Shown here one piece after another: positions 11,614 to 44,190 of a stretch of 64,000 nt of DNA. Position 1 is the stretch's first letter, and each line of letters starts with the position of its first letter. The translations under genes and the position numbers were made by a program. This DNA is from Pseudomonadota bacterium (GTDB lineage: Bacteria > Desulfobacterota > Desulfarculia > Desulfarculales > Desulfarculaceae), in the NCBI GenBank assembly GCA_018819925.1, contig JAHJPG010000091.1:1-64000 (forward strand). The letters are read 5' to 3'. The notes beneath the pieces are model-generated. The model made no database searches, had not been told where the DNA came from, and saw only the letters and a program-made list of their open reading frames with translations.

Positions 11614-11615
11614 GC

Positions 11616-25917: not shown

Positions 25918-27147
25918 ATGAACAGAAAAACGCAAAATAAAGAGCAAAAACAAATTAAGGCACAGGGCACCGTCCGAGAGCGAATTCTGCAGTCCGCCTG
26001 CCGGGTAATCAACGAAAAAGGATACTCCGGGGCGAGCGTGCGAGACATCGCGGCAGAGGCCGGCTTGACCGAGCCAACTATATACTTGCATTTTAAGGGA
26101 AAAGAGGAAGTTCTATTCTCCATCGTGGAACAGCAGGTTGAGGATTCCCTGGTTTTCATGCGGGAGCACATGGCCGGCATTTCCGGCGCTCACCAGAAAC
26201 TGCGCAAACTAATTTGGGCCCACCTGCGCTACAACGACCTCCATCAGGATTATTTGAAATTAGTGCTTCTTGATTGTCGTTCAAATTATAGTTTTTATAA
26301 ATCAGATGCATATAAGGTAATTCGCCGCTATTCGGGCATTGTTCTGTCCATCATCCAGGAAGGCATCGACGAGGGGGTTTACCCCCTGGAGCTCAACGCT
26401 CGCCTGATGCGCGACATTGTATTGGGCGTCTTGGACTTCGAAGCCTATACCGTGTTGATTACCAAAGAAATTCCCGATGCCACCCAGGATCACGAAGCCA
26501 TCATGGCCCTGCTGGACAACTTACTGCTGGGCTGGGCGAGCGAAACCAACGACAGCGCTAATAAAAGCAAAAGGATTCTGCAGGCGGCGATCAAGGCTTT
26601 TGCCAAGAAGGGCTATGCCGGAGCGACCATTTCCGACATCGCCAAGGCGGCCAAGGTTTCCGACGGCACGGTTTATGAGCACTTCAAAAACAAGGAAGAC
26701 CTTCTGCTTTCCATCCCCGAGGAGTATTTCCAGAGCCACCTGGACCGCCTGGAGCAGAGCTTCAACATCACCGACAACTCCCGCAAACTCAGGAGATTCA
26801 TCCAGTACCATTTCCGGCTCTACCTTGATGACTACGATTTTTTGCTGGTTTACCTGCTTTTGATACAACTCAATCGCACCTTCTATAAAACCCGCGCCTA
26901 CACGGCGCTTAAAAGCTACATGGCGGTGTTTGAGAAACTGGTCGAGGACGGGATCAAGGACGGCTCTTTTGTCGCCGAGTGCAACGTGCGGGTTTACCGG
27001 AACATGTTTTTCGGCGCCTTCACCCACATGACGCTGCGTTGGTTCGTGGTCGAATGCCGGGGCCAAGTCGACAAACTGAGCGAAATCAATCAAGCCACGA
27101 AATATTTCCTGGACATGATCACCCCCAAGGGGGAGCGGGAAGGCTAG
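25918..27147 (+). CDS. Tandem double TetR-family transcriptional regulator
   Basis: The product is 409 residues, about twice a normal TetR protein. It has two DNA-binding domains: residues about 20-67 (TVRERILQSACRVINEKG... TEPTIYLHFKGKEEVLF) and about 215-262 (KSKRILQAAIKAFAKKGYAG... SDGTVYEHFKNKEDLLL), each followed by its own roughly 140-residue ligand-binding helical domain with matching LRRFI/LRKLI-type helices and YNDLHQDYLKLVLL / YLDDYDFLLVYLLL. A single chain can therefore bind an operator as an intramolecular pseudo-dimer. It precedes livK by 94 bases and probably controls the catabolic cluster, likely sensing an acyl-CoA. Confidence 0.9.
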   Translation: MNRKTQNKEQKQIKAQGTVRERILQSACRVINEKGYSGASVRDIAAEAGLTEPTIYLHFKGKEEVLFSIVEQQVEDSLVFMREHMAGISGAHQKLRKLIWAHLRYNDLHQDYLKLVLLDCRSNYSFYKSDAYKVIRRYSGIVLSIIQEGIDEGVYPLELNARLMRDIVLGVLDFEAYTVLITKEIPDATQDHEAIMALLDNLLLGWASETNDSANKSKRILQAAIKAFAKKGYAGATISDIAKAAKVSDGTVYEHFKNKEDLLLSIPEEYFQSHLDRLEQSFNITDNSRKLRRFIQYHFRLYLDDYDFLLVYLLLIQLNRTFYKTRAYTALKSYMAVFEKLVEDGIKDGSFVAECNVRVYRNMFFGAFTHMTLRWFVVECRGQVDKLSEINQATKYFLDMITPKGEREG

Positions 27148-28618: not shown

Positions 28619-28626
28619 GCGTAAAA

Positions 28627-28657
28627 AGCGGGGAGGCCTCCCTGTGGCCTCCCCGCT
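28627..28657 (+). terminator. Perfect 12-pair hairpin after livK
   Basis: AGCGGGGAGGCC (28627-28638) and GGCCTCCCCGCT (28646-28657) with a seven-base loop, 8 bases after the livK stop. No T-run follows, so it is more likely a stability or partial-termination element that raises binding-protein levels. Confidence 0.65.
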
Positions 28658-28829
28658 CATTTCCACAGCAACGGTTTTGGGAAAGATCGGACCGGGTGGA
28701 AGGCGGGAGCGCAAGGTCTATGAAAATCAACGATCTCCGAGCCGCAACAATGGAAACTGTGCAGCCTATCTCAACGTATCAGGTTGCAGAGCAACTGGCT
28801 CCCCTTCTGACGCTATAGAGGCCTAACCA

Positions 28830-29708
28830 GTGGAAACTTTGACCAATTTGGTGATTCACGGCCTTTTGTACGGCGGCATGTGCGCCATCCTGGCCGTGGG
28901 GTTCGCGCTTATCTTCGGGGTGGCCAAGATCGTAAACATGGCTCACACCGCCTTTTACATGGTCGCCTCTTTCATCATCTTCATAGGAGTCAGCCGTGTA
29001 GGGCTGCCGGTGTGGCTGGCGTCGTTAGTTTCGATCCTGCTCACCTGCCTACTTTCGGTCATCTGCTACAAGCTCTTTTTCGAACGGGTGAAACACCACG
29101 AGACTGCGGTGATGATCATCTCCGTGGCCCTGGCCATGCTCTTTCAAGAGATTTTCCTGCTGATATTCGGCGGCCACTACCACGGAATCCCCGCCCTGGT
29201 GAAGGGCTTCATGGACCTCGGGGTGGTGCGCATCTCCTATAAGAACCTCTTCGCCCTGGGCTTTAGCCTCATCACCCTGCTTGGCCTTTGGCTCCTGCTC
29301 TCCAAGACCCGCCTGGGCATTGCCATCCGCAGCGTGGCCCAGGACCGGGAGGTGGCCAACCTGGTGGGCATAAACATCAACCACATCTACATGATAACCA
29401 TGGGCATCTCGGCTGGGCTGGCTGCGGTGGCCGGAGCCATCGTGGCCCCCATCTTCATGGTGCATCCTCTCATGTGGATGCAGCCCCTGGTCATGGTCCT
29501 GGCCGCAGTGGTCCTTGGCGGCCTCGGGAGCATCAAGGGCGCGGTGATCGCCGCCTTGATCCTGGGCTTCGCCGAGAGTTTGGTCATTTTCCTCATACCC
29601 GACGGCAGTTTCCTGCGAGGCGCCGTATCCCTGGCGGTGATGGTGGTTGTGTTGGTCATCAGGCCGGAGGGCCTCTATGGCGTGGTCTTCGAGGAGGAGA
29701 GGCTCTAA
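28830..29708 (+). CDS. livH: Liv-type ABC importer permease 1
   Basis: The product is 292 residues with about eight hydrophobic helices. The LivH opening GLLYGGMCAILAVGFALIFGVAKIVNMAH is diagnostic, RLGIAIRSVAQDREVANLVGININ near 160 is the cytoplasmic EAA-like coupling loop, and MVLAAVVLGGLGSIKGAVIAALILG near 222 is the conserved LivH C-terminal helix pair. The start is GTG 28830 behind AGAGG. Its stop overlaps the livM start by one base. Confidence 0.9.
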   Translation: METLTNLVIHGLLYGGMCAILAVGFALIFGVAKIVNMAHTAFYMVASFIIFIGVSRVGLPVWLASLVSILLTCLLSVICYKLFFERVKHHETAVMIISVALAMLFQEIFLLIFGGHYHGIPALVKGFMDLGVVRISYKNLFALGFSLITLLGLWLLLSKTRLGIAIRSVAQDREVANLVGININHIYMITMGISAGLAAVAGAIVAPIFMVHPLMWMQPLVMVLAAVVLGGLGSIKGAVIAALILGFAESLVIFLIPDGSFLRGAVSLAVMVVVLVIRPEGLYGVVFEEERL

Positions 29709-30787
29709 TGGGTCACTACCTGAGAATTTGCTATCATGTGATAAAGACCGAAGTCCTGGAAGTCCCGGGACGCGTCATCGCAGCCATGTTCGTAATCGCC
29801 TTGCTGGCCATGCCTCTTTTCATCAGCCAGCCCTACGTGCTGCGCATCCTAACCCTGACAGCCATTTTTGCCATTTACGCCACCAGTTGGGACGTGCTGG
29901 CCGGCTTCACCGGGCAGGTGAACCTGGGCCACGCTCTGTTTTTCGGGGTGGCGGCTTACGCTGGCGCCAAGCTTAACCTCAGCATGGGTCTGCCCCCTTG
30001 GGCCACCATCCCCTTGGGTGGGGTGGTCGCCGTTGTGGTGGGGCTCATCGCGGCAATGCCCGCCCTGCGGCTAAGGGGTTTCTACCTTTCCCTGGTCACC
30101 ATGGCCCTGCCCATAATTCTGACCGGTGTCATTTACATCTTCCCGAGCTTCACCGGCGGCGAACTGGGGCTTTACGGCATCGACCGGCTGTCCAACTCGG
30201 TAGTTTTCAACTACTACCTAACCACGGTCATCATGCTGGTCTCGGTGTACATCATGTACAAATACACCGACAGCGAAAGCAAGCTGATCCGAACCGGCAT
30301 AATCCTCCACGCCATTCGCGAGGACGAGATAACCGCCCGGGCTTCGGGCATCAATTCCACACGATATAAAATAATGGCTTTCGCGGTCAGCGGATTTTTC
30401 GCGGGTATCGCCGGAGGCCTATACGGCCACTACATGAAGATAGTCGGCCCCTCCACCTTGGACCTGTTCTTTTCCTTTCAGGCCATTTTGTGGACCATCT
30501 TCGGAGGCATGACCACCATCTACGGCGCCGTGGCCGGCGTCTACATCCTATATCCTCTCGTGGAATTCATAAGGGTTCTGCCTCATGGCGAGGATGTAAG
30601 GTTCATCTTCTTCTCCGGAATTCTCATCTTGACCCTCCTTTTCATGCCTGAGGGCCTCACTACCTGGGTCAGAGACAAGATCGAAATAAAGTGCCCGCGC
30701 TGCAAGCTGGTGAACGTCGTCACCCGGCGCAACTGCCGCGCTTGCCGGGCCCCTTTACACCTGGAAAAGGACCAACTTGGTCAGTAG
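29708..30787 (+). CDS. livM: Liv-type ABC importer permease 2 with C-terminal zinc ribbon
   Basis: The product is 359 residues from ATG 29708 (TAATG overlap with livH). LivM signatures are YATSWDVLAGFTGQVNLGHA near 58, GRLRLRGFYLSLVTMALPI-type MPALRLRGFYLSLVTMAL near 118, IREDEITARASGINSTRYK near 205 (ATPase-coupling loop) and LPHGEDVRFIFFSGILILTLLFMPEGL near the membrane end. The unusual part is the tail: CPRCKLVNVVTRRNCRACRAP near residue 326 gives two CxxC pairs, a zinc-ribbon-like cytoplasmic extension not normal for LivM. Confidence 0.9.
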   Translation: MGHYLRICYHVIKTEVLEVPGRVIAAMFVIALLAMPLFISQPYVLRILTLTAIFAIYATSWDVLAGFTGQVNLGHALFFGVAAYAGAKLNLSMGLPPWATIPLGGVVAVVVGLIAAMPALRLRGFYLSLVTMALPIILTGVIYIFPSFTGGELGLYGIDRLSNSVVFNYYLTTVIMLVSVYIMYKYTDSESKLIRTGIILHAIREDEITARASGINSTRYKIMAFAVSGFFAGIAGGLYGHYMKIVGPSTLDLFFSFQAILWTIFGGMTTIYGAVAGVYILYPLVEFIRVLPHGEDVRFIFFSGILILTLLFMPEGLTTWVRDKIEIKCPRCKLVNVVTRRNCRACRAPLHLEKDQLGQ

Positions 30788-30802
30788 CTGAGGAGGCGAG
30801 CG

Positions 30803-32500
30803 ATGCCGTCCGTGTATGAACAAAAGCCCTGGTTGAAATTTTACCCCGCCGGGGTTGCGCCCGAGGTGGACATACCCGACAAGTCGATCAACGACCTCTT
30901 CGACGAGGTGGTGGAGAAATACAAGAAGCGGGTCGCCCTGATTTTCTACGGCACCAAGATCACCTACCAGGAGCTGGGGGACAAGGTCTTGCGCATGGCC
31001 ACGGCCCTGGCCTCCCTGGGGGTGAAAAAGGGCGACCGTGTGGCCCTGTTGCTGCTCAACGCGCCCGAGCACGTCATCGCCTTCTACGCGGTGCAGCGCC
31101 TGGGGGCGGTGGTCACGGCCATCAGCCCGGTGTACGTCTCCAGCGAGATGCGTCACCAGTTGGATGACAGTCAGGCCACCAGCCTTATCTGCCAGGATTT
31201 CCTCTACCCCACCGTGGAGAAATCAGGCTATCAGTTTGCCAACGTGATCCTCGCCAGCATCACCGACTCGCTGCCCAAACTCAAAAAGATGATGGGCACC
31301 ACCATCCTGCGGGGCGTGTACCAAAAGATGGCCGCTCCGCCCGCCGACATCTACAATCAGGAGCATTTTTACGGCTTCCATGAGTTGCTCCAGAACCACC
31401 CCCCCCAACCGCCCCGGGTGGAGCTGAACGTCGCCGAGGACATAGTAACCCTGCCCTACACCGGCGGCACCACCGGCCCTCCCAAGGGCGTGATGATCAC
31501 CCACCGCAACGCGGTGAGCAACCTCTATCAGTTCAAAAACTACCTGAACATGATCGAGGAAGGCAGCGAGGTGTGGATGGCTTATATGCCGTTCTACCAC
31601 GCGGCCGGCCAGGTCGTGGCCCTGATCTTCGGCGTTCTGATGGGATTCACCCTGGTGGTGATAACCACGCCGGACGTTGAGGAGATACTCAGCGCCATGG
31701 GCAAATACAAGGCCACCACCTTCTTTGGGGCCCCGACCATCTATGAAGTTCTCAAGGACGAAAAGAAGACCGACCGGGTCAACTGGCGAAAGCTCAAGCT
31801 GGTGCTCTCGGGGGCCGACGCCTTGCACGAGTACACGGCCAAGGATTGGAAGGTCCGCACCGGCACCGATATTTTCGAGGGCTACGGGCAGACCGAGTGC
31901 GTGGCCCTCACCCACGAAACCGCCGCCGGTCACGTGAAAATCGGCTCGGTGGGCCTGCCCATCTGCAACACCCAATCGGCCATCCTCGACCCCGAGGAGG
32001 ACCAGTACATGCCCGTGGGCGAAATAGGCGAGATAGTGGTCAGCGGACCTCAGATTTGCAAGGGCTACTGGCGCAACGAAGCCGCCACCAACGAGTGCAT
32101 TGCAGAGATCGGGGGCATCCGGTGGTGGCGCACCGGCGACCTGGGCCGCATGGACGAAAACGGCTTCTTCTACGTGTACGACCGCAAGCGCGACCTCATC
32201 AAATACAAGGGACTGAGGGTGTACGCCAGGGAGGTGGAGGAGGTGCTGCGCACCCACCCCAAAATCAAGGAGGTGGGGGTCATCGGCGTACCGGACCGCA
32301 AGGTCGGCGAGCAAGTAAAGGCTCTGGTGGTTCTTGAGTCCGACTCGCGGGGCAACCTGTCGGAAGCGGACATCATGAGCTACTGCGAGGACAAGCTGGC
32401 TTACTACAAGATCCCCCGCATAATCGAGTTCGTGGGGGAGGTGCCCCGCACCGACGTGGGCAAGGTCTCGCGCCGCGAGCTGCGGGAAGAGGAGAGCTAG
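30803..32500 (+). CDS. AMP-forming acyl-CoA synthetase 1 (FadD-like)
   Basis: The product is 565 residues. Adenylate-forming motifs in order are YTGGTTGPPKGVMITH near residue 218 (P-loop), GYGQTEC near 361, TGDLGRMDENGFFYVYDRKRDLIKYKG near 445 (hinge Asp-Arg-Lys), and the A10 lysine in PRTDVGKVSRREL near the end. It activates a carboxylic acid to its CoA ester. It interrupts the transporter genes (between livM and livG), linking uptake directly to activation. Substrate chain is not readable, but long or cyclic acids fit the family size. Confidence 0.9.
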   Translation: MPSVYEQKPWLKFYPAGVAPEVDIPDKSINDLFDEVVEKYKKRVALIFYGTKITYQELGDKVLRMATALASLGVKKGDRVALLLLNAPEHVIAFYAVQRLGAVVTAISPVYVSSEMRHQLDDSQATSLICQDFLYPTVEKSGYQFANVILASITDSLPKLKKMMGTTILRGVYQKMAAPPADIYNQEHFYGFHELLQNHPPQPPRVELNVAEDIVTLPYTGGTTGPPKGVMITHRNAVSNLYQFKNYLNMIEEGSEVWMAYMPFYHAAGQVVALIFGVLMGFTLVVITTPDVEEILSAMGKYKATTFFGAPTIYEVLKDEKKTDRVNWRKLKLVLSGADALHEYTAKDWKVRTGTDIFEGYGQTECVALTHETAAGHVKIGSVGLPICNTQSAILDPEEDQYMPVGEIGEIVVSGPQICKGYWRNEAATNECIAEIGGIRWWRTGDLGRMDENGFFYVYDRKRDLIKYKGLRVYAREVEEVLRTHPKIKEVGVIGVPDRKVGEQVKALVVLESDSRGNLSEADIMSYCEDKLAYYKIPRIIEFVGEVPRTDVGKVSRRELREEES

Positions 32501-32502
32501 CC

Positions 32503-33288
32503 TTGGAAGACGTCATCCTCGAAATCGAGGGCCTGAGCAAGAGCTTCGGCGGCCTCCAAGCGGTGAGCGATGTTTCCTTTAGCATCGGACGCAACGAGAT
32601 CGTCGGGCTCATCGGGCCAAACGGCGCGGGCAAGTCCACGACCATCCGGCTGATCAGCGGCATCCTCAAGCCCTCGTCGGGCACGGTGCGCTTCAAGGGC
32701 AAAAACATCACCGACAAGCCGGTGTGGGACATCGTGAACATGGGCCTGGCATCGACCTTCCAAGTGGTCAAGCCCTTCCGCCAACTCCCGGTGGCGGCCA
32801 ACGTCATGGTGGCTTGCCTCTGCCCCAGGGCCAAGAGGCACGGCGAGTGGGTGAAGACCGTGGAGCTCAGGGCGCGCGACGCCCTGGAGTTCGCGGGCAT
32901 AGCAGACCTGGCCTTGGAGCCGGCGTCGGTGCTTTCCCACGGCGATCTCAAGCGGCTGGAGTTGGCCCGGGCCATCGCCACCGAGCCCGAGCTGCTGCTG
33001 CTGGACGAGCCCTTCGGCGGCCTGAACCCGGCCGAAACCAGCATGATCGCCCGCTCCCTGAAACGGCTGCACAAGGGCGGCCGCTTCGGCCGCCTGCACA
33101 GCGAGGGCCCGGCAATGCTCATCGTGGAGCACAAGCTGGCCGACCTCATGCCGATCCTGGATCGGGTGGTGGTCATCAACTTCGGGCGAATCCTGGCCGT
33201 GGGCACGCCGGAGGAGATCGTCAACAACCCCGCGGTCATCGAGGCCTATTTGGGCAAGGAGGTTGGGAACCTTGTATCTGGAAGTTAG
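32503..33288 (+). CDS. livG: Liv-type ABC importer ATPase 1
   Basis: The product is 261 residues. Walker A GPNGAGKST near 39, Q-loop STFQVVKPF near 84, signature variant LSHGDLKRLELARA (LSHG instead of LSGG) near 147, Walker B LLLLDEPFGGLNPAE near 165, H-loop IVEHKLADL near 207. The RFGRLHSEGP insert before the H-loop is unusual. The start is TTG 32503, two bases after the ligase stop with GAGGAG upstream. It overlaps livF by 17 bases (26 if the earlier TTG is used). Confidence 0.9.
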   Translation: MEDVILEIEGLSKSFGGLQAVSDVSFSIGRNEIVGLIGPNGAGKSTTIRLISGILKPSSGTVRFKGKNITDKPVWDIVNMGLASTFQVVKPFRQLPVAANVMVACLCPRAKRHGEWVKTVELRARDALEFAGIADLALEPASVLSHGDLKRLELARAIATEPELLLLDEPFGGLNPAETSMIARSLKRLHKGGRFGRLHSEGPAMLIVEHKLADLMPILDRVVVINFGRILAVGTPEEIVNNPAVIEAYLGKEVGNLVSGS

Positions 33289-34021
33289 GAACCTGACCGT
33301 CCTCTATGACCGGGCGATGGTGCTCAACAACGTCAGCCTCAATGTGGAGAAGGGCGAAGCCGTGGGTCTGGTAGGGCCCAACGGAGCGGGCAAGAGCACC
33401 ATGATGCGCGCCATAACCGGCCTGGTGCAATGGGAGAAGGACTCCCTCAAGGGCACCACCAAGGGCAAGATCACCATCGAGGGCAGCGTGGTGTTCAACG
33501 GCGAGGAGCTCATAAACGTTCCCGCTCCCCGCATAGCTCAGCGGGGGCTCATCCTTTGCCCCGAGCGCGGCAGGCCCTTTAGGGAGATGACCGTCAAGGA
33601 AAACCTGGAGGCCGGCGCCTACTTGGTGAAAGACAAAAGGGTTATCAAGGATAGCCTGGACAAGGTCTACTACCTGTTCCCGCGCCTGAAGGAGCGCATA
33701 GACCAGGTTTCCGGCACCCTGTCAGGCGGCGAGAGGACCATGCTCTCCATTGGGCGGGCCCTTATGTCTCAGGCCAAGCTGCTGCTCATCGACGAGCCTT
33801 CCACGGGACTGGCGCCGTTGGTCAAGCAGGACCTGTTCACCCGCATCAAGGACGTGCATGGCCTGGGCATCACCATACTCTTGGTGGAGCAGGACATAAG
33901 CTTCGCTTTCGATCTGGCGCCGCGCAACTATGTTTTGTCCCAGGGCAAGATGATAACCCAAGGGTCCCCGGAAGAGCTTTTGGCCGACGAGAGCATCCGG
34001 CGAACCTACCCGGGGCTCTAG
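33272..34021 (+). CDS. livF: Liv-type ABC importer ATPase 2
   Basis: The product is 249 residues from TTG 33272. That codon is nine bases after AAGGAGG (33256-33262), whereas the alternative TTG at 33263 would touch the ribosome site. Walker A GPNGAGKSTMM near 38, RGLILCPERGRPFREMTVKENL near 89 (Q-loop region), signature LSGGERTMLSIGRAL near 147, Walker B LLLIDEPSTGLAP near 170, H-loop LLVEQDISFAF near 205. It completes the five-gene importer. Confidence 0.9.
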   Translation: MYLEVRNLTVLYDRAMVLNNVSLNVEKGEAVGLVGPNGAGKSTMMRAITGLVQWEKDSLKGTTKGKITIEGSVVFNGEELINVPAPRIAQRGLILCPERGRPFREMTVKENLEAGAYLVKDKRVIKDSLDKVYYLFPRLKERIDQVSGTLSGGERTMLSIGRALMSQAKLLLIDEPSTGLAPLVKQDLFTRIKDVHGLGITILLVEQDISFAFDLAPRNYVLSQGKMITQGSPEELLADESIRRTYPGL

Positions 34022-34023: not shown

Positions 34024-34797
34024 ATGGGACAGCCAAGCATAAGCCGCGGGCCCGTGTTTGAGGATCTGCAAGAAAAGGTGGTGGTGGTCACCGGCGCGGC
34101 CCGGGGCATAGGCCGCCGGGTGGCCGAAGCCTTTGGCGCGGCGGGAAGCAAGGTGCTGGCCGCGGACCTGTCCGAGGAGGTGCTAGGCCTGACCGGGCCC
34201 GACCCCGGCCCTGGCCGGTGGATCAACCAGCGCTGCGATGTGTCCGACCAGGAATCGGTGGCCGCCATGGTGGAGCGTTGTCTGCTGGACCTGGGGCCGC
34301 CGGATGTCCTGCTGAATATCGCCGCGATCAGCCAACCGCGCCAGGTCATGGACATGTCCTTGAAGCATTGGCAGCGCACCATCGAGACCAACCTGAACTC
34401 GGTATTTATTTGCACCAAAGCGTTTCTCCCCCACATGGTTCAACGGCAGGCGGGCAGCGTCATCAGTTTTTCCTCCCTGGTGGCGGCCACCGGCGGCCAC
34501 ACCAGCGCGCATTACGCCGCGGCCAAGGCGGGAGTGGAGGGCTTCACCCGCAGCCTGGCCCTGGAGGTGGGCGGCTATGGGGTCAGGGTAAACACGGTGG
34601 CGCCGGGCATGGTGGAAACCATGATGCTGGCGCTGATGCCGGGGCCGCAGCAAGAGCGTCTCGTCGCCAGGACTCCCCTGCGCCGTTGCGGGCGGCCGGA
34701 CGACTTTGTCGGCGTGTGCATGCTGCTGGCTTCCGATGCGGGCAGCTACATCACCGGCCAGACGATTCACGTAAACGGCGGCCTGTACATGAACTGA
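34024..34797 (+). CDS. Short-chain dehydrogenase/reductase
   Basis: The product is 257 residues, a classical SDR. Cofactor motif VTGAARGIGRR near 25, acidic residue AADLSEE near 49 favouring NAD, NIAAIS (N-x-A-x region) near 96, catalytic Ser in ISFSSLVAA near 147, Tyr-x3-Lys as HYAAAKAGVEGF near 161, and a C-terminal SDR end SYITGQTIHVNGGLYMN. It would oxidise a 3-hydroxyacyl-CoA (or ring hydroxyl) in the pathway. It begins two bases after livF and is followed by the first acyl-CoA dehydrogenase. Confidence 0.88.
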   Translation: MGQPSISRGPVFEDLQEKVVVVTGAARGIGRRVAEAFGAAGSKVLAADLSEEVLGLTGPDPGPGRWINQRCDVSDQESVAAMVERCLLDLGPPDVLLNIAAISQPRQVMDMSLKHWQRTIETNLNSVFICTKAFLPHMVQRQAGSVISFSSLVAATGGHTSAHYAAAKAGVEGFTRSLALEVGGYGVRVNTVAPGMVETMMLALMPGPQQERLVARTPLRRCGRPDDFVGVCMLLASDAGSYITGQTIHVNGGLYMN

Positions 34798-34879: not shown

Positions 34880-36025
34880 ATGGACTACAGCTTTACAGAT
34901 GAGCAGATGATGCTGCGCGACACCATCGCCCGCTTCATGGAAACCGAGGCGACGCGGGAGGTGATCGAGGAGATAGAGAAGGCCAACGAGTTCCCCCACG
35001 CCTTGGTGGACAAGCTCAGTGAGTTGGGCTTCATGGGCATCAACGTGCCCGAAGAGTACGGCGGACAGGCGGGTACGGTCATCGACGAGATGATTCTCTT
35101 TGAACAGATCGCCAAGCGCCTGCCGGTGTTGGCCTGGGCGGCGGGCAATGTGATCCTCTACGGCAACAATATCATCAACACCAACGGCAACCAGGAGCAA
35201 AAGGAAAAGTTCCTTCCCCTGCTGGTGGAGGGCAAGCTCAAGTTTTGCTTCGCGCTCACCGAGGCCAACGTGGGCTCGGACGCGGCCCAGTTGCAGACCA
35301 AGGCGGAGTTGAAAGACGGCCGCTACGTCATCAACGGGGCCAAGATGTTCATCACCGGGGCGGGCATCGCCGACTACGTGGTGACCAACGCCCGCACCGG
35401 AGGCCCGGGCATGGACGGCATCACCGCCTTTTTGGTGCCTGGGAGCGCCGCGGGATACAGCGCCTCGCCCATCAACAACCTGGGTCACAAGGGCTCCAAC
35501 ACCTGCGCGGTGACCTATCAAGACGTGGAGGCGGGGCCGGAGGACATTTTGGGCGGCCCCGAGCAGATCAACCAGGGATGGCGTCAGATGATGCGCCTGC
35601 TCAACTCCGAGCGCCTGGTGCTGTCTTCCTGCGCCATCGGCATCGCCCAGGCGGCCCTGGATTACGCCCTGGCCTATGCCAAGGAGCGGGTGCAGTTCGG
35701 CCGCCCCATCGGCCGTTTCCAGGCCATACAAAACAAGCTGGTGAACATGGCCACCGAGGTGGAGGCGGCGCGGCGGCTGGCTTATTACGCCGGGTGGATG
35801 GAAGTGAACCATATGCCCTGCGTAAAGGAAACCTCCATGGCCAAGCTCTATTCGGCGGAGGTGGCCAAAAGGTGCGCCATGGATTGCGTGCAGATATTGT
35901 GGGGCTATGGCTACGCCATGGAATACGACGCCCAACGTTTTCTGCGCGACTCGCTGGTCTACTCCATCGGGGGGGGCACCAGCGAAATACAGATGAACAT
36001 CATCGCCAAGCAGATGGGGCTGTAA
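34880..36025 (+). CDS. Acyl-CoA dehydrogenase 1 (isovaleryl-CoA-dehydrogenase-like)
   Basis: The product is 381 residues with all ACAD parts: FALTEANVGSDAAQLQT near 129 (substrate and FAD contacts), FITGAGIADYVV near 156, RVQFGRPIGRFQ near 272, GYGYAMEYDAQRFLRD near 340, and SIGGGTSEIQ near the end. At the medium-chain catalytic Glu position there is Gly. Instead a Glu occurs in LNSERLVLSS near 245, the helix-G site used by isovaleryl-CoA and long-chain enzymes. It makes a 2,3-enoyl-CoA and passes electrons to ETF. A good AGAGAGAAGG ribosome site precedes the start. Confidence 0.9.
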   Translation: MDYSFTDEQMMLRDTIARFMETEATREVIEEIEKANEFPHALVDKLSELGFMGINVPEEYGGQAGTVIDEMILFEQIAKRLPVLAWAAGNVILYGNNIINTNGNQEQKEKFLPLLVEGKLKFCFALTEANVGSDAAQLQTKAELKDGRYVINGAKMFITGAGIADYVVTNARTGGPGMDGITAFLVPGSAAGYSASPINNLGHKGSNTCAVTYQDVEAGPEDILGGPEQINQGWRQMMRLLNSERLVLSSCAIGIAQAALDYALAYAKERVQFGRPIGRFQAIQNKLVNMATEVEAARRLAYYAGWMEVNHMPCVKETSMAKLYSAEVAKRCAMDCVQILWGYGYAMEYDAQRFLRDSLVYSIGGGTSEIQMNIIAKQMGL

Positions 36026-36065: not shown

Positions 36066-37250
36066 ATGAGCAGCTTGAAGAACAAGGTGGCCATAGTAGG
36101 AATCGGCGAGGTGCCCACCGGCCGGTTTCCGGAGAAGGCGGCCATATACCACGCCATAGAATCGGCCCGTTTGGCCATCGCCGACGCGGGGATAAGCAAG
36201 GACGACATCGATTTCGTAATGCCCACCGCTTCCCTGTACAGCTCCCAGTTCAACACGGAGCTGGTCACCTGCCGCATCCCCGAGGAACTGGGCCTTAAAA
36301 ACGCCCACACCAACTGCCAGATCTTTGCCGGCGGCTCCAGCGGAAGCTGCTTTTTGTCCATGGCCGGCAGCCTTATCAACAGCGGCGTGGCCAAATACGT
36401 GCTGTGCGCCCACGCCGAAAGATTGGGCACCGGCGTAACGGCCCAAGGCGGCATCGACCTGTTCTCCCAGGCCGGCATCTCGGTGGAGTGGGAAGTGCCT
36501 TACGGTCAGCACTATTCTTCCATCGCCGCCATGTCCACCGGGCGCTATCTGCACGAGACCGGCTGCACCGACGAGCACATGGCCGCCGTGTGCGTGTCCA
36601 ACCGCAAGTGGGCCGAGCTCAATCCCAACGCCGCCTTCCGCAAGCCCCTCAGCCTGGAGGAGGTGCTTTCGTCCAAGATGCTCTCGACCCCGCTACGGGC
36701 CAAGCAGTCCAACATGCTTTTCGACGGAGGCTCGGCCTTCATAATCACCTCGGCGGAAAGGGCCCGCGACCTCACCGACCGGCCGGCCTACCTTTTGGGG
36801 ACCGGCGGCCGGGTGACCCACTTCGCCTTTTCCCAGGAGCCCGACGTTACCCGTTTCGGCTGGGCCCAGGCCGGGAAAGACGCCTTCGAGGAGGCGGGGA
36901 TCACCCCCCAGGACGTCGACGTGGCCGAAATTTACGACTCCTATCCCATCTATCAGATCATCGGGCTGGAGGAGCTGGGCTTCTGCGGCCGGGGCGAGGC
37001 GGGCGAGCTTTTCCTCAAGGGCGACACCTGGCCCGGCGGAAAACTGCCCTGCACCACCAACGGCGGCATGCTTTCCCAGGGGCATACCGGCGCGGGGGGC
37101 GGGGTGGCCCTTATCGTGGAGGCCGCCCGCCAGCTCATGGGCAAGGCCGGGGACAGGCAGGTGCCCGGGGCCCGTTTCGCCGTGGAGACGGGAACCGGCG
37201 GCACCTATATGGACGCACAAGTTTCGGTGCTGGGCACCGAGATAGTTTAA
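36066..37250 (+). CDS. Cys-less thiolase-fold protein, putative acyl-CoA retro-aldolase subunit
   Basis: The product is 394 residues from ATG 36066 (TGGAG upstream), resembling SCP-x/Ltp2-type thiolases. Where thiolases have the nucleophile as (A)CASGS, this protein reads AGGSSGS near residue 90, so the catalytic Cys is Gly. AEIYDSYPIYQIIGLEELGF near 296 matches the Tyr-bearing segment of Ltp2-like aldolases, and NGGMLSQGHTGAGGG near 340 is an altered GHPxG motif. It is followed 11 bases later by a DUF35 protein, as Ltp2 is partnered by a DUF35 domain. Retro-aldol cleavage of a beta-hydroxyacyl-CoA is therefore more likely than thiolysis. This is inferred from residues and context. Confidence 0.8.
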   Translation: MSSLKNKVAIVGIGEVPTGRFPEKAAIYHAIESARLAIADAGISKDDIDFVMPTASLYSSQFNTELVTCRIPEELGLKNAHTNCQIFAGGSSGSCFLSMAGSLINSGVAKYVLCAHAERLGTGVTAQGGIDLFSQAGISVEWEVPYGQHYSSIAAMSTGRYLHETGCTDEHMAAVCVSNRKWAELNPNAAFRKPLSLEEVLSSKMLSTPLRAKQSNMLFDGGSAFIITSAERARDLTDRPAYLLGTGGRVTHFAFSQEPDVTRFGWAQAGKDAFEEAGITPQDVDVAEIYDSYPIYQIIGLEELGFCGRGEAGELFLKGDTWPGGKLPCTTNGGMLSQGHTGAGGGVALIVEAARQLMGKAGDRQVPGARFAVETGTGGTYMDAQVSVLGTEIV

Positions 37251-37261
37251 GGAGCGGCATG

Positions 37262-37675
37262 ATGAGCACCAACCAGAAACCCGGCCCGGTGGTCAATGAA
37301 TGGGCCCGTCCCTATTGGGATTACGCCAAGCAAAACAAGTTTTGCCTGCAACAGTGCAACGATTGCGGCAAGCACATCTTCTATCCCCGCATCGCTTGCC
37401 CCCATTGCGGCTCCAGCGATGTGAAGTGGGTGGAGGTTTCGGGCAAGGGCCGCATCTACTCCTACACGGTGGTGGAAAACAACGCGCCTTCGGCTTTTCA
37501 GGCCGACGTTCCCTACGTGGTGGCCATCATCAAGCTGGAGGAAGGCGTCCAACTGCTGAGTAACGTGGTGGAGTGCGATCCTTATCAGCTTGAGTTCGAC
37601 ATGCCGGTGGAAGTCGTCTTCGAAAAGCTGGACGAAGAGGTCACCTTGCCCAAGTTCCGGCCCGTGAAGGGCTAA
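37262..37675 (+). CDS. DUF35 zinc-ribbon/OB-fold protein, partner of the thiolase-fold enzyme
   Basis: The product is 137 residues. A helix (RPYWDYAKQNKFCLQQ) is followed by a rubredoxin-like zinc ribbon with CNDC and CPHC pairs about residues 34-52. An OB-fold then follows (KGRIYSYTVVENNAPSAFQADVPYVVAIIKLEEGVQL). DUF35 proteins bind thiolase-fold enzymes and close their acyl-CoA pocket. Start ATG 37262 is preferred to 37259 because GGAG lies seven bases before it. Its adjacency to the Cys-less thiolase supports a two-subunit aldolase. Confidence 0.88.
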   Translation: MSTNQKPGPVVNEWARPYWDYAKQNKFCLQQCNDCGKHIFYPRIACPHCGSSDVKWVEVSGKGRIYSYTVVENNAPSAFQADVPYVVAIIKLEEGVQLLSNVVECDPYQLEFDMPVEVVFEKLDEEVTLPKFRPVKG

Positions 37676-37758
37676 AAGGCTACTCGGTCTCCCGCCGGCC
37701 CCGGGAGGCGGAGCAAAGCAGGACAAGCGGCGCCGCGCTGAATTTTAATGGCGCCAAA

Positions 37759-37788
37759 CCGCCGGGGGCGCGAACACGCCCCCGGCGG
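37759..37788 (+). other. Perfect 12-pair intercistronic hairpin
   Basis: CCGCCGGGGGCG (37759-37770) and CGCCCCCGGCGG (37777-37788) around a six-base loop, without a T-run. Between the DUF35 and MaoC genes. Same scale as the post-livK hairpin, so likely a processing or stability site in a long mRNA. Confidence 0.7.
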
Positions 37789-37852
37789 CGGGCCGACACC
37801 CGCCGCCGACCAGGCGCGGTTCAGCCAACCACAAACACGGCGAGACGAAGCA

Positions 37853-38302
37853 ATGCCAAAGGAAGTTTACGGAGACGACTTCAATCCGGGGGACATCTAT
37901 ACCACCGCCCGCATTACCCTTACCGAGACTCACGTGGTGCAATGGGCCGGCTTGACCATGGACTTCTATCCCCTGCACATGGACAAGGTCTACGCGGAGC
38001 AAACCCAGTTCGGACAGCGTCTGGTGCATGGGCCCCTTATCTTCGCCATGGCCGTGGGGCTGGTGGGTTCGGCCGGCTTCGCGGGCAATTCCGCCATCGC
38101 CTGGCTGGGCGTGAACAACATGCGCATGCTCAAGCCGGTCTTCATAGGCGACAGCATCACGGTGGTGGTGGAAGTCATCGAAAAACGCGAGACCAAGTCC
38201 CCGGACAAGGGCGTCCAGACCTGGCGCTACACCGTCAAAAACCAGAACGGCCAAGACGTGATGGTTTTCGACTACAACATGATGTTCCACATGAGGACCT
38301 GA
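37853..38302 (+). CDS. MaoC-like enoyl-CoA hydratase
   Basis: The product is 149 residues from ATG 37853. A single hot-dog domain with the (R)-hydratase signature region TMDFYPLHMDKVYAEQ near residue 36 (Asp and His five apart), QFGQRLVHGPLIFAMAVGLV near 55 and VVEVIEKRETKSPDKGVQTWRY near 108. It hydrates a 2-enoyl-CoA or dehydrates the 3-hydroxyacyl-CoA, feeding the SDR or the aldolase. A longer frame upstream is GC-rich read-through of the hairpin and is not used. Confidence 0.88.
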   Translation: MPKEVYGDDFNPGDIYTTARITLTETHVVQWAGLTMDFYPLHMDKVYAEQTQFGQRLVHGPLIFAMAVGLVGSAGFAGNSAIAWLGVNNMRMLKPVFIGDSITVVVEVIEKRETKSPDKGVQTWRYTVKNQNGQDVMVFDYNMMFHMRT

Positions 38303-38363
38303 GGCCGCCGGCAAATGCGCGTTTAAGGATTTGGCCGCTCGGCAACAAGGAGCTGGGGTGAAG

Positions 38364-39614
38364 ATGACGGAAGTATATGTGTTGGGGTCCTACAGCACCC
38401 GATTCGAAAAAAGGCTGGCGGACTCCATGAAGGATTTGACCCGGGAAGCCTATCTTGGGGTTCTTGGCGACGCCGAACTGGTAGACGGGCGCGATATCGA
38501 TTTCGCCTGGTTCTCCAACTGCTCAATGGGCACCTTGTGGGAGCAGGATCTCATTCGCGGCCACGTATGCCTTTCGCCCCTGGTTGAGGAGGGGTTGTTT
38601 CCCGAGAGGGTGCCGGTGATAAACGTGGAGGGCGCCTGCTCCAGCGCATCCATGGCCTTCCACGGCGCCTGGAAGGACATCTTGAGCGGCCAAAGCAATC
38701 TCTCCCTGGCCATCGGCGCCGACAAGTTCTACCACCCGGACATGGAGCGGGTGGTTCTGGCCTACGAGCACGGAGTGGACCGTCTGGACAAGGCGCGCTT
38801 GGTCTCTGAGTACCAGGCGGCGGCGGCAGAGTGCGGGCGCGAATTCAAGCTGGGAGCCGGGCACACCATTTTCATGGACACCTACGCCATGCAGGCCTGT
38901 TGGCACATGGCCAATTGGGGGACCACCCAGGAGCAGATAGGCATGGTGGCGGCCAAGAACCACTACAACGGCTCCCTGAACCCCAAGGCCCAATATCAGT
39001 TCGAGGTGCCCCTGGACAAGGTGCTCAAGGATTACCTGGTGAGCTATCCCTTGACCCGCTCCATGTGCGCCCCCATCGGCGACGGGGCGGCTGCGGTTCT
39101 GCTCTGCTCGCGGGAGTTTCTGGATTCCCAGCCGGAGCCGGTGCGGCGCCGGGCGGTGAAGGTCAAGGCAAGCGTGTTGTCTTCGGGCAAGCACCGCCAC
39201 CCCTCCGAGCCCAGCCTGAGCAAGTGGGCCGCGGACAAGGCCTATGCCATGGCCGGCATTTCGCCCGGAGATGTGGATGTGGCCGAGGTGCATGACGCCA
39301 CCTCTTTTTGCGAGATATATCAGTCGGAGATGCTGGGCTTCTGCCCTCCTGGGCAGGGGGGACGGTTGGTGGAGTCAGGGGCCACCGCCCTGGGCGGGGT
39401 CATCCCCATAAACACCTCGGGCGGGCTGGTTTCCAAGGGCCACCCGGTGGGGGCCACCGGGCTTTCCATGATCTACGAGTTGATAACTCAACTGCGCCAC
39501 GAGGCCGGGCCTCGACAGGTGGAGGGCGCGGCTATAGCCCTGGCCGAGAACGGCGGGGGGGTGATTTCCACCGAGGAGTTCGCCTGCAGCATCACCATTT
39601 TGCAGAAGGCATGA
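38364..39614 (+). CDS. Thiolase (SCP-x-type acetyl-CoA acyltransferase)
   Basis: The product is 416 residues from ATG 38364. GTG 38358 is also possible. The nucleophile Cys is present in VEGACSSASMAFHGA near residue 89, and NTSGGLVSKGHPVGATG near 350 has the GHPxGATG His. The terminal CxG loop is replaced by ALAENGGGVISTEEFACS, as in SCP-x relatives. Unlike the Cys-less protein upstream, it should carry out true thiolysis of a 3-ketoacyl-CoA. No DUF35 gene follows it directly. Confidence 0.85.
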   Translation: MTEVYVLGSYSTRFEKRLADSMKDLTREAYLGVLGDAELVDGRDIDFAWFSNCSMGTLWEQDLIRGHVCLSPLVEEGLFPERVPVINVEGACSSASMAFHGAWKDILSGQSNLSLAIGADKFYHPDMERVVLAYEHGVDRLDKARLVSEYQAAAAECGREFKLGAGHTIFMDTYAMQACWHMANWGTTQEQIGMVAAKNHYNGSLNPKAQYQFEVPLDKVLKDYLVSYPLTRSMCAPIGDGAAAVLLCSREFLDSQPEPVRRRAVKVKASVLSSGKHRHPSEPSLSKWAADKAYAMAGISPGDVDVAEVHDATSFCEIYQSEMLGFCPPGQGGRLVESGATALGGVIPINTSGGLVSKGHPVGATGLSMIYELITQLRHEAGPRQVEGAAIALAENGGGVISTEEFACSITILQKA

Positions 39615-39665: not shown

Positions 39666-41243
39666 ATGATCGGGCACACCCTAGGCGGCTTGTATGATCG
39701 AGCGGTTCAGTTTTTTAAAGACCGGCCAGCCCTGATTTTCGGGGATACGACCTACACCTATGAAGAAATGGGCCTCAACGCGGCGCGTCTGGCCAATGGT
39801 CTGCGCAGGTTGGGCCACCAAAAGGGCGACCGCATCGCCTTCCTCATGTCCAACTGCCCCGAGTACGTATTTTGCGAATACGCCGCGGCAAAGACCGGCT
39901 GCGTCAGGGTGCCCCTGGCGGTGCTCTTGAGCGGCAACGACCACGTTTACATGCTTAACCAGTCCGAGGCCGTCAGCCTTATCTACCACCAGAAGATGAC
40001 CGAGCGGGTTTTGGCCATGATTCCCCACCTGGAAACGGTCAAGCACTTCATCTGCGTGGGCCCGGACGCGGAGGCCGTGCCCAAGGGGCACCTGCACCTC
40101 AACGAAATGATGATCCAACTGGAGCCCGACTGGGGCCCGGAGGTGGAAATAGACCCGGAAGACCTGGCGGGCATCTACTACACCGGGGGCACCACCGGCA
40201 AGCCCAAAGGGGTGATGCTCTCCCATCGCGCCTGGGTCTACACCATTCTCATTGAGATGTTGGAGTTCGAGATAGCCTGGAACGAGGTCTTCGCCTACCC
40301 GACCCCACTGACCCACGCCGGGGGCTGCCTAATGCTGCCGGTCATGCTGCGCGGTGGCAAGTGCGTCATCCTGGATCACTTCGAGCCCAAGCTTTTCATG
40401 GAGGCCGTGGAAAAGAACAAGGTCACCGCCACCTTCCTGGTGCCCACCATGATCTATGTGCTCCTGGACCAGCCAGATTTGGCCTCCCACGACCTGAGCA
40501 GCCTGCGCAACGTTATCTACGGCGCTTCGGCCATCGCCCCGGAGCGCCTCAAGCAGGCCATCAACACCTTTGGCCCCATTTTCACCCAGCTTTTCGGCCA
40601 GACCGAGGCCCCCATGATGATAAGCTGCCTGCCCCGGGCCAGCCACGTGGTGGCCGACCCCCAGCGGGAGAGGGAAATCTTCAGCTCGGCTGGACGTCCC
40701 ACCTTCCACGCAGAAGTGAAGCTAGTGGACGAACAGGGCCGCGAGGTTGCCCAGGGCGACAGCGGCGAGGTCACGGTGCGCTGCGCCAACATGATGAGCG
40801 GCTATTTCAAGAACCCCGAGGCCACGGCCGAGACGGTGGTGGACGGCTGGCTGCACACCGGCGACATAGCCAAGCAGGACCAAGAGGGCTTCTTGTACAT
40901 CGTGGATCGCAAGAAGGACATGATAATCAGCGGCGGCTTCAACATCTTCCCCCGGGAGATAGAAGACGTGCTCTTCGAGCACCCGGCGGTGAAGGCCGCC
41001 GCCGTGGTTGGCGTACCCCATCCCAAGTGGGGCGAGGAGGTCAAGGCGGTGGTGGTCCTCGCTCCCGGAGGGGAAGCGTCGGCCGAAGAGCTGATCGCCT
41101 TTGTCAAACAGCGCAAGGGCAGCTTGGTGGTGCCCAAAAGCTTGGAGTTCTGGCCGGAGATACCCCTGACCAACCTGGGCAAGGTGGACAAGAAGGCCAT
41201 CCGGTCCAAGTTCTGGGAGGGGCGGGACCGCATGGTTTCCTAA
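39666..41243 (+). CDS. AMP-forming acyl-CoA synthetase 2
   Basis: The product is 525 residues. Motifs are YTGGTTGKPKGVMLSH near 169, FGQTEAPMM near 312, TGDIAKQDQEGFLYIVDRKKDMIISGG near 400 and LTNLGKVDKKAIR with the A10 Lys near 508. It is in the medium/long-chain ligase group, distinct from the first ligase. Two ligases in one cluster suggest that both the original acid and a later acid intermediate need activation, or that two related acids are used. Confidence 0.9.
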   Translation: MIGHTLGGLYDRAVQFFKDRPALIFGDTTYTYEEMGLNAARLANGLRRLGHQKGDRIAFLMSNCPEYVFCEYAAAKTGCVRVPLAVLLSGNDHVYMLNQSEAVSLIYHQKMTERVLAMIPHLETVKHFICVGPDAEAVPKGHLHLNEMMIQLEPDWGPEVEIDPEDLAGIYYTGGTTGKPKGVMLSHRAWVYTILIEMLEFEIAWNEVFAYPTPLTHAGGCLMLPVMLRGGKCVILDHFEPKLFMEAVEKNKVTATFLVPTMIYVLLDQPDLASHDLSSLRNVIYGASAIAPERLKQAINTFGPIFTQLFGQTEAPMMISCLPRASHVVADPQREREIFSSAGRPTFHAEVKLVDEQGREVAQGDSGEVTVRCANMMSGYFKNPEATAETVVDGWLHTGDIAKQDQEGFLYIVDRKKDMIISGGFNIFPREIEDVLFEHPAVKAAAVVGVPHPKWGEEVKAVVVLAPGGEASAEELIAFVKQRKGSLVVPKSLEFWPEIPLTNLGKVDKKAIRSKFWEGRDRMVS

Positions 41244-41297: not shown

Positions 41298-42440
41298 GTG
41301 GACCTCGGGCTGACCAGCGAACATCAAATGATCCGCGAGACCGCCAGGCGATTCGCGCGACAGGAGTTGGAGCCGATGGTGGCACAGTGCGAGAGCCAGG
41401 AGTGCTTTCCCCTGGAGGTGTTTCGCAAGGCCGGAGAACTGGGGCTCTTGGGTCCGTTTTTTCCCTCGGAATACGGCGGCTCCGACAGCGATCTCCTGAG
41501 CAACGCCATAATCATCGAGGAACTGGCCAAGGTCAGCGCCAGCTTCGCCATGTCGGTGGATGTCTCGGCGATCTATTTCGGCTACAACCTGTTCAAGCTG
41601 GGCAGCCAGGAGCAGAAGACCAAGTACCTGCCGGATATCGTCACCGGCAAAAAACTGGGTTGCTTCGCCCTGACCGAGCCAAACGCCGGTTCGGACACCT
41701 TGTCATTGGCCACCACGGCCAAGCGTCAAGGCGAGCACTTCATAATAAACGGCTCCAAGATATTCATCACCAACGCTCCCATCGCCGATTACTTCATGGT
41801 GGTCACCCGGACCTCCCCCCGCGACGGCATCAAAGGCGGCACGACCTTCATCGTGGAGCGGGGCAGCGAAGGCATGGAGGTGGTGGAGATGCACGGCAAG
41901 ATGGGGGTGAAAAGCTCCCCCACCGGAGAGATATACTTCCACGACCTCAAGGTGCACCAGCGCCAGATTTTGGGGCAACAGGACCAGGGGTTCCAGGGCA
42001 TGATGCGCTCGCTCAACATGGAGCGGGCCATGGCCCCGGCCATGGTCATAGGCATGGCCCAGGACTGCCTGGATCGCAGCCTGGCCTATGTGAAAACCAG
42101 GGAGCAGTTCGGCAGGCCCATCGCCGAGTACCAGCTCATCCAGGCCAAGCTGGCCGAAATGGCGATGGGCATCGAAACCTCGCGCGCCTATCTCCACAAA
42201 GTCATCTGGATGGTGGAAAACGGCATGGACGTCACCAAGGAGGCGGCCATCCTGAAGTGCCACTCCACCCGGGTGGCCACCAATGCCGCCCTGGAGGCCA
42301 TCCAGATTCACGGCGGTTACGGATACATGCAAGAGTACGGAGTCGAGCGGGCCCTGAGGGACGCCAAGCTGATGGAGATCGGCGGCGGCACCAACGAGAT
42401 ACAACTGCTGGTGATCGCCCGGGAGTTGCTTCGCGCCTGA
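41298..42440 (+). CDS. Acyl-CoA dehydrogenase 2 (isovaleryl-CoA-dehydrogenase-like)
   Basis: The product is 380 residues starting at GTG 41298 behind GGAGA. CFALTEPNAGSDTLSLAT near 115, FITNAPIADYFMVVTRT near 155, REQFGRPIAEYQLIQAKLAEM near 270, GGYGYMQEYGVERALRDAKLMEIGGGTNEIQ near 335. The Glu at the helix-G site is in LNMERAMAPA near 238, with Gly at the MCAD-type Glu position. It is the second desaturation enzyme of the cluster and precedes the CoA-transferase-fold genes. Confidence 0.9.
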   Translation: MDLGLTSEHQMIRETARRFARQELEPMVAQCESQECFPLEVFRKAGELGLLGPFFPSEYGGSDSDLLSNAIIIEELAKVSASFAMSVDVSAIYFGYNLFKLGSQEQKTKYLPDIVTGKKLGCFALTEPNAGSDTLSLATTAKRQGEHFIINGSKIFITNAPIADYFMVVTRTSPRDGIKGGTTFIVERGSEGMEVVEMHGKMGVKSSPTGEIYFHDLKVHQRQILGQQDQGFQGMMRSLNMERAMAPAMVIGMAQDCLDRSLAYVKTREQFGRPIAEYQLIQAKLAEMAMGIETSRAYLHKVIWMVENGMDVTKEAAILKCHSTRVATNAALEAIQIHGGYGYMQEYGVERALRDAKLMEIGGGTNEIQLLVIARELLRA

Positions 42441-42485: not shown

Positions 42486-43385
42486 GTGCAGCACCCCCGG
42501 CGCCGCGAGGTGATTGTCAGCGAGGCGCAAGCCGCCTCATGGATAACCGACGGCATGACCATCGCCATCGGCGGCTTGCTGAGTTCCAGCCATCCCATGG
42601 CCCTGATTCGGCAGATCATCCGGCAAGGGGTCAAGGGCCTTACCGTGCTGGCGGGCTCCGCCGGCCTGGAACTGGACCTGTTGATCGCGGCGGGCTGCGT
42701 GGACAAGGTGGCTGTTTCGCTGATGACCGGCGAGGCGGTTGTAGCCGTGGGGCCCATGTTCCGCGCCGCCGCCCAAAGCGGCCGGTTGCAGGTGTGGGAG
42801 GCGGAGGAAAGCATCTACGCCGCCGGCCTGCAGGCAGCCGCCCTGGGCTTGCCTTTCATGCCCTGCCGGGCTGGGGTGGGCACATCCCTGCCCCGAATCA
42901 ATCCCGACCTAAAGGAGTTTCGCGACCCCATCAAGGGCGAGCCGTTGCTGGCGGTTCCGGCCCTGAGGGCCGACGTGGCCATTCTGCACGCCGACCGCTC
43001 CGACCCCTACGGCAATGTGCAGCACGAGGGCACCGGCTTCGGCGACCGGGCCCTTTTCCGGGCCGCCGACAAGGTGATCGTGCAAGTGGAGAAGATCGTA
43101 ACCAACGAGGAGATAAGGAGGCGGCCCGAAGCCACCTCCATCCCCGGAGCCGACGCGGTGGTGCGCGCACCCTTGGGAGCTCATCCCGGCTCCTGCCCCG
43201 GCCGTTACCTGGAAGACTTGGCCCACATGAAGGAATATGCGGACGCGGCAAAGGAGGCAGGTGGCAAGGGAAACGACGGCAAGCTCGCTTCCTACCTGGA
43301 GCGCTACGTGCTGGGGATAACCAACCACCTGGAATACCTGGACGTGATCGGCGCCGGTCGGTTGCTGTCCTTGCAGGAATTTTGA
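42486..43385 (+). CDS. CoA-transferase-fold enzyme, alpha subunit (glutaconate CoA-transferase/IpdA-like)
   Basis: The product is 299 residues from GTG 42486. A class I CoA-transferase alpha fold: SEAQAASWITDGMTIAIGGLLSSSHPMALIRQIIR near 12, LTVLAGSAGLELDLLIAAGCVDKV near 51, FMPCRAGVGTSLPRINPDLKEFRDP near 122 and LHADRSDPYGNVQHEGTGFGDRAL near 165. It is of the GctA/IpdA type. It may transfer CoA, or act like IpdAB, which opens a ring CoA ester by hydrolysis. The choice depends on the beta subunit, which lacks the usual Glu motif. Confidence 0.85.
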   Translation: MQHPRRREVIVSEAQAASWITDGMTIAIGGLLSSSHPMALIRQIIRQGVKGLTVLAGSAGLELDLLIAAGCVDKVAVSLMTGEAVVAVGPMFRAAAQSGRLQVWEAEESIYAAGLQAAALGLPFMPCRAGVGTSLPRINPDLKEFRDPIKGEPLLAVPALRADVAILHADRSDPYGNVQHEGTGFGDRALFRAADKVIVQVEKIVTNEEIRRRPEATSIPGADAVVRAPLGAHPGSCPGRYLEDLAHMKEYADAAKEAGGKGNDGKLASYLERYVLGITNHLEYLDVIGAGRLLSLQEF

Positions 43386-43392
43386 GGGCCCC

Positions 43393-44190
43393 ATGGGATG
43401 TGCCGAAGATTATAGCGCCGCCGAGTTGATGGCGGTTTTTCTTTCCCGGGACCTGCGCGACGGGGAGATGGCTCACCTGGGGGCCAACCAGCCGGTGCCC
43501 AGGGCGGCGGTGCTGCTGGCCCATCTCACCCACGCACCCAACATGAAGGTCTCGCAGTCCCTGACCCTGGCCAACCTCATCGACGTCCCGCGTCCGGTGC
43601 CCTACTCGGAATTTTTCACCGACTGGCGGCGCGCCCGCTGGGCCGAAAGCTATCGCCTGGGCCATGAGGTATTCGCGGACGTGAAACGCTTCGCCGACTT
43701 TTTCTTCCTCGGTGGCATCCAGATCGACCGCTTCGGCAACGTGAATTTGATCGGCACCGGAACCGATTATCGCCGTTTGGATTTCAGGGGGCCGGGCTCG
43801 GGGGCGGCGGCCATGGCCTCCACCTTTTGCCCGCGCTACTACCTGGTGGCGGGGGATCACAACAAGCGCCTGTTGGTGGACAAGGTGGATTTCATCTCCG
43901 CTTTCGGCTTCGGCGACGGCGGAAGGGAAGCCAGAAACGCCCTGGGGCTGCCCGGCGGTGGCCCAAAATATCTGGTCACCCCCCTTTGCGTGATGGACTT
44001 CGAGCCGGAAACCAAACGCATGCGCCTGGCCTCGCTTCATCCGGGGGTCGCGCTGGAACAGGTGCTGGAAAACACCTCCTTCGATCCGGTCCTGCCCGAG
44101 AATATCCCCACCACTGCGGCTCCCACCAGCGAAGAACTGGCCGTGCTCCGCGGGCGCATAGACCCACAGGGCACGCTAAGGCGGGGCTAG
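43393..44190 (+). CDS. CoA-transferase-fold enzyme, beta subunit (IpdB-like)
   Basis: The product is 265 residues. LRDGEMAHLGANQPVPRAAVLLAHLTHAPNMKVSQSL near 17-53, FFLGGIQIDRFGNVNLIGTG near 100, GAAAMASTFCPRYYLVAGDH near 138 and LVTPLCVMDFEPETKRMRLASLHPGV near 195 follow the GctB/IpdB pattern. The (S)ENG/ESG motif that carries the catalytic Glu in true CoA-transferases is not found at the expected spot (it reads NMKVSQS). This suggests a hydrolase or lyase use of the fold. The gene begins seven bases after the alpha subunit and closes the catabolic cluster. Confidence 0.82.
   Translation: MGCAEDYSAAELMAVFLSRDLRDGEMAHLGANQPVPRAAVLLAHLTHAPNMKVSQSLTLANLIDVPRPVPYSEFFTDWRRARWAESYRLGHEVFADVKRFADFFFLGGIQIDRFGNVNLIGTGTDYRRLDFRGPGSGAAAMASTFCPRYYLVAGDHNKRLLVDKVDFISAFGFGDGGREARNALGLPGGGPKYLVTPLCVMDFEPETKRMRLASLHPGVALEQVLENTSFDPVLPENIPTTAAPTSEELAVLRGRIDPQGTLRRG

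Follow-up and report, generated by a model that had tools for sequence, protein, structure and literature searches.

A candidate two-subunit, DUF35-coupled acyl-CoA retro-aldolase on a cysteine-less thiolase fold

Among the closest described counterparts of the protein reported here are two acyl-CoA aldolases built on the thiolase fold. Sal–Shy(DUF35) is the bile-acid C5 side-chain aldolase of Comamonas testosteroni (PDB 9myr; PMC12329534), and Ltp2–ChsH2(DUF35) is a C3 side-chain aldolase from Thermomonospora curvata (PDB 6ok1). In such systems, the DUF35 domain holds the aldolase and is fused to a MaoC hydratase, as in Shy and ChsH2 (PMC11321319, PMC12329534, PMC12502768). Hydration by ChsH1–ChsH2 has an unfavourable equilibrium that is pulled forward by the aldolase, and the tertiary hydroxyl that it forms cannot be oxidised (PMC8399759). 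In ibuprofen degradation by Rhizorhabdus wittichii (plasmid pIBU218), a Cys-less thiolase fold with a DUF35-type partner, IpfD–IpfE, has been proposed to release propionyl-CoA (PMC9195938). In the literature that we found, catalytic residues have been worked out for only two such aldolase clades, both of them steroid-specific.

We analysed a window of 64,000 nucleotides (contig JAHJPG010000091.1), in which two adjacent forward-strand genes, 36066–37250 and 37259–37675, probably encode a two-subunit, DUF35-coupled acyl-CoA retro-aldolase that would act in a ligase/dehydrogenase/MaoC pathway. The window locus shares with Sal–Shy the thiolase fold, Gly in place of the nucleophilic Cys, a Tyr base in a YDxY motif, a DUF35 partner and a MaoC hydratase. 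With Ltp2–ChsH2 it shares Gly for Cys, the Tyr base (Tyr294 of Ltp2, Tyr290 here), a C4 zinc DUF35 and a coupled hydratase. Our best reading of the sequences is that this is an aldolase of a known broad kind, within a clade that appears new and with a different candidate acid residue; a literature search returned no report describing the clade.

Active-site residues, clade and fold

The catalytic-subunit candidate (36066–37250, forward strand) is an open frame of 394 amino acids. Its likely start is the ATG at 36066, where homologues align from residue 1. Pfam gave a Thiolase_C_1 match (E 7e-58) and no Thiolase_N match in this frame. Residues were compared in an alignment of the window protein with segments of solved structures, own-genome paralogues and plasmid homologues, with Tyr294 and Tyr344 of TcLtp2 placed by printed segment coordinates and Gly89, Tyr302, Cys304 and Gln352 of CtSal placed by the same coordinates minus an inferred offset of 24. 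On the catalytic columns of Ltp2 and Sal, the window protein has Gly90, Tyr290, Ser292 and His340.

In the alignment, the motif AGGSSGS (residues 88 to 94) takes the place of the true thiolases' Cys loop, and the residue that falls on the Cys itself is Gly90. Gly90 is invariant across aligned homologues (38/38) and Gly89 nearly so (37/38), which bears out the initial annotation's claim of Gly at the nucleophile position. Tyr290, the Tyr base of the YDx(F/Y) motif, is also present in all 38 and reads YDSY in the window protein, and Tyr290, Ser292 and His340 are each invariant in a 35-sequence homologue alignment. The window protein has neither the nucleophile Cys nor the HDxF His of SCP2-type thiolases. 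Across 39 aligned rows, Tyr accompanies 24 of the 26 that lack Cys and His 12 of the 13 that have it, although related rows are not independent.

The acid residues of the two characterised aldolases are not retained. Tyr344 of Ltp2 corresponds to Gln352 of Sal (PMC12329534), and the two also fall on one column in our alignment, where the window protein has His340. Cys304, the acid of Sal (YDCY), is replaced by Ser292, and none of Gln161, Gln347 and Gln352 of CtSal is kept. The Tyr-rich, Ltp2-like segments noted initially are therefore retained in part: the Tyr294 equivalent stands, in YDSY rather than the YDHF of Ltp2, whereas the Tyr344 equivalent is His340. Ser292 cannot simply stand in for Cys304, because the C304S mutant of CtSal has no activity (PMC12329534). 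Given this, and because the Rhizobium etli homologue has Ala at the Ser292 position yet keeps the His, His340 is the better acid candidate. Tentatively, the Tyr290/His340 pair might be a third way in which a thiolase-fold enzyme catalyses the retro-aldol cleavage of acyl-CoAs.

An IQ-TREE phylogeny of 39 rows, rooted for display only, divides into halves of 15 and 24 rows with 100/100 support. The 15-row half holds the true thiolases and two Cys-less paralogues from the host's own genome. SCP2-type thiolases and the benzoylsuccinyl-CoA thiolase BbsAB (PDB 6hsj, 7pxp) lie across the split from the window protein; they share its fold, and BbsAB also has a DUF35-type subunit, but in these enzymes nucleophile Cys and HDxF His are both retained. 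The 24-row half holds Sal, Ltp2, IpfD, 4u4e and the window protein's clade, which unites it with relatives from R. etli, Rhodococcus, Sphingomonas and Pseudonocardia at 100/100, apart from Sal and Ltp2. Exact placement is unsure for IpfD and CtSal, which both sit on long branches. IpfD–IpfE differs from the window pair in its motifs (EG / YDAF / Tyr), its ring-hydroxylating dioxygenase neighbours and its separate branch.

By sequence, the nearest solved structures are 4u4e, CtSal (9myr) and Ltp2 (6ok1). The first of these, an uncharacterised putative thiolase from Sphaerobacter thermophilus, is closest by both sequence and fold; it has GGSS, YDSF and His on the window protein's columns and groups with other rows outside the window clade. 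An AlphaFold2 model built from 35 sequences has a mean pLDDT of 81.6, with low values at residues 58–65, 136–149 and 208–217. Its best Foldseek matches in the PDB are 4u4e and Ltp2, with Sal fifth and thiolases close behind. The predicted model confirms the thiolase fold but does not settle the reaction, as TM-scores are about 0.8–0.87 to aldolases and thiolases alike. The initial proposal of an acyl-CoA aldolase is thus upheld by residues, tree, nearest solved structures and neighbourhood, though not as a member of the Ltp2 or Sal family, whose acids are missing and whose clades are separate.

Three further Cys-less thiolase-like proteins occur in the host genome. Two of them, L004 and L006 (the paralogues in the tree), carry GGATGG with HDAF and ASSTG with HDAF, respectively; the third, L012, has GGATGG and is itself cut by a contig end.

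The DUF35 partner and the conserved gene module

The partner gene (37259–37675, forward strand) encodes a zinc ribbon and an OB fold (zf-ChsH2 and OB_ChsH2_C), and its ATG lies 8 bp past the aldolase stop codon (37248–37250), preceded by AAGGAG. A DUF35 zinc-ribbon gene directly after the aldolase gene, as first noted, is therefore confirmed. Its C-x2-C-x10-C-x2-C motif is found in all 33 related DUF35 stretches. The DUF35 chains of Shy and ChsH2 are nearest (1e-25 and 6e-25), and BbsA is far (4e-4). A DUF35 partner alone is no proof of an aldolase, since the true thiolases BbsAB and PhlBC and the archaeal acetoacetyl-CoA thiolase each have one.

All other features of the cluster also lie on the forward strand. 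Upstream are a Liv-type ABC transporter block (27242–34021; Liv names partly from translations alone) that includes an acyl-CoA ligase (30803–32500), an SDR oxidoreductase (34024–34797) and, directly before the aldolase gene, an acyl-CoA dehydrogenase (34880–36025). Downstream of the DUF35 gene are a MaoC-type enoyl-CoA hydratase (37748–38302; start uncertain) bearing the Asp/His motif DFYPLH, an SCP2-type thiolase (38361–39614), the acyl-CoA ligase that belongs to the conserved module (39666–41243), a second acyl-CoA dehydrogenase (41298–42440) and the alpha (42486–43385) and beta (43393–44190) subunits of a CoA-transferase-fold pair, resembling glutaconate CoA-transferase or IpdAB.

One genome scan yielded 37 related loci, and module counts refer to those with enough downstream sequence. 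DUF35 comes next in 32/32, MaoC follows in 32/32 and its Asp/His motif is intact in 34/34; 27/29 have the ligase and 26/29 show an acyl-CoA dehydrogenase match. This fixed aldolase–DUF35–MaoC–ligase module, usually with an acyl-CoA dehydrogenase, has its genes arranged as one would predict for a pathway of activation, desaturation, hydration and retro-aldol cleavage. Single queries near the related loci gave no match to P450, Rieske oxygenase or hydantoinase/oxoprolinase. Because an SDR is close to the aldolase gene here, as it is at many related loci, a dehydrogenase/thiolase route is possible for other steps.

It is unlikely that the window protein is itself a Ltp2- or Sal-family steroid aldolase whose target is the side chain of a sterol or bile acid. 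The fold, Gly, Tyr, DUF35 partner and hydratase neighbour are all shared with those families, and steroid ring catabolism is brought to mind by the IpdAB-like pair in the window and, in relatives, by a neighbouring NMO/FabK-type (IpdC-like) protein. Against this stand the clade separation, the loss of Tyr344 and of Cys304/Gln352, a C4 zinc ribbon in place of the Cys3His1 site of Shy, and DUF35 and MaoC encoded by separate adjoining genes rather than as the single proteins Shy and ChsH2. In addition, no typical steroid genes were identified. As a broader pathway, steroid catabolism is a possibility raised by the IpdAB-like pair; the upstream acyl-CoA dehydrogenase scores 83 bits against IpdE2, for which the cut-off is 450.

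Several neighbours deserve mention in their own right. In the beta subunit of the pair at 42486–44190, a Ser aligns with the catalytic Glu54 of glutaconate CoA-transferase. Loss of this Glu has likewise been described for the ring hydrolase IpdAB (PMC5380842), and by analogy the pair may be a C–C hydrolase rather than a transferase. A 409-aa protein with two tandem TetR-type DNA-binding domains (25918–27147), just upstream of the transporter block, is a possible regulator of the cluster. Recurrent neighbours among related loci L013–L046 include a CrtI-like FAD flavoprotein (13 loci; named from sequence, with no Pfam match) and NMO/FabK-type (9), HpaB-family (7) and APH-type phosphotransferase (5) proteins.

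Proposed reaction and competing readings

We infer the activity, its direction, its substrate and its acid residue as follows. The ligase would form an acyl-CoA, which an acyl-CoA dehydrogenase would convert to a 2-enoyl-CoA and the MaoC protein would hydrate to a 3-hydroxyacyl-CoA. The thiolase-fold subunit would then split the Cα–Cβ bond without a covalent thiol intermediate: Tyr290 would take the proton from the β-hydroxyl, whose oxygen would be held by the backbone NH of Gly90, and His340, perhaps with Ser292, would protonate the acyl-CoA enolate. The products would be acetyl- or propionyl-CoA and a carbonyl compound. Since one query found no aldehyde dehydrogenase match near any related locus, the carbonyl compound is more likely to be a ketone, from a tertiary, β-branched alcohol, than an aldehyde; together with the lack of P450 and Rieske matches, this tips the balance towards a ketone and a module that needs no oxygen. 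A ketone product would also suit the setting on an R. etli plasmid (L050, 326–10604), where a 47% aldolase homologue shares a cluster with genes for hydantoinase/oxoprolinase A and B, CoA-transferase A and B and acetoacetate decarboxylase.

A thiolase or C-acyltransferase that uses another nucleophile, either the GGSS-loop Ser or Cys176, would agree with the thiolase fold, with the retained thiolase His (His340) and with a DUF35 partner of the kind that also accompanies true thiolases and PhlC. We consider this very improbable. No other active-site Cys was seen: Cys176, the sole invariant Cys, sits in a predicted helix, and CtSal has a Cys at the aligned position that is not among its named catalytic residues. 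Moreover, an invariant Tyr replaces the HDxF His, and Sal, which has this Gly too, is described as incapable of thiolysis (PMC12329534).

The gene at 38361–39614 does encode a true Cys thiolase (GACSSAS, HDAT, GHPVGATG), as the initial annotation recognised. Its presence in the same cluster might suggest that the window protein is a non-catalytic partner of this thiolase or of another enzyme, a reading to which we give little credence, as the true thiolase occurs in only 3 of the 32 related loci that have downstream sequence and the active-site Tyr290 and His340 are invariant. The same count places the thiolase outside the conserved module as an accessory, and does not support the earlier suggestion that both chemistries are needed. 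There is an equally slight chance that the protein works synthetically, either condensing substrates by an aldol-type reaction or serving as a decarboxylating synthase: aldolases can work in both directions, and the Cys-less relative TbSLP slowly decarboxylates malonyl-CoA (PMC12329534). Against this, the surrounding genes (transporter, ligases, acyl-CoA dehydrogenases, hydratase) are catabolic, and CtSal has no malonyl-CoA decarboxylase activity (PMC12329534).

If the Tyr290/His340 reading is true, sulfate-reducing and other bacteria could get past β-branched acids without oxygen, by cleaving tertiary 3-hydroxyacyl-CoAs to a ketone and an acyl-CoA. A third clade that is widespread, highly conserved and equipped with a different acid residue would take this chemistry beyond steroids and would offer anaerobes passage of the β-branches that block normal β-oxidation. 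It also means that 'thiolase family protein' labels can conceal C–C lyases.

Host and distribution

The host genome has a dsrA match above the curated cut-off and no COX1 match for a haem-copper oxidase, which points to a likely anaerobic, sulfate-reducer-like host. The anaerobic setting first proposed for the aldolase thus holds for this host but not for the family, whose members are also found in Gamma-, Beta- and Alphaproteobacteria and in Actinobacteria; an anaerobe-only family is ruled out by these homologues. Sterolibacterium denitrificans, an anaerobic sterol degrader, already has a Shy homologue (PMC12329534).

Within the phylum, 12 of 297 genomes, the window's own included, have a match at E <= 1e-80. 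The aldolase gene is missing from seven same-genus genomes, yet the flank at 128–13860 is 80–84% identical and in the same order in two of them. This synteny led us to reject a mis-binned contig, and the combination indicates patchy gain or loss of the catabolic block. Comparison of 13860–44200 with the sister genomes G001 and G005 shows synteny ending near 13860. The 34.0–44.2 kb block is absent from the stretches compared, and the Liv–ligase block is found in both at 65–69% identity, its orientation in G001 being opposite to that in the window.
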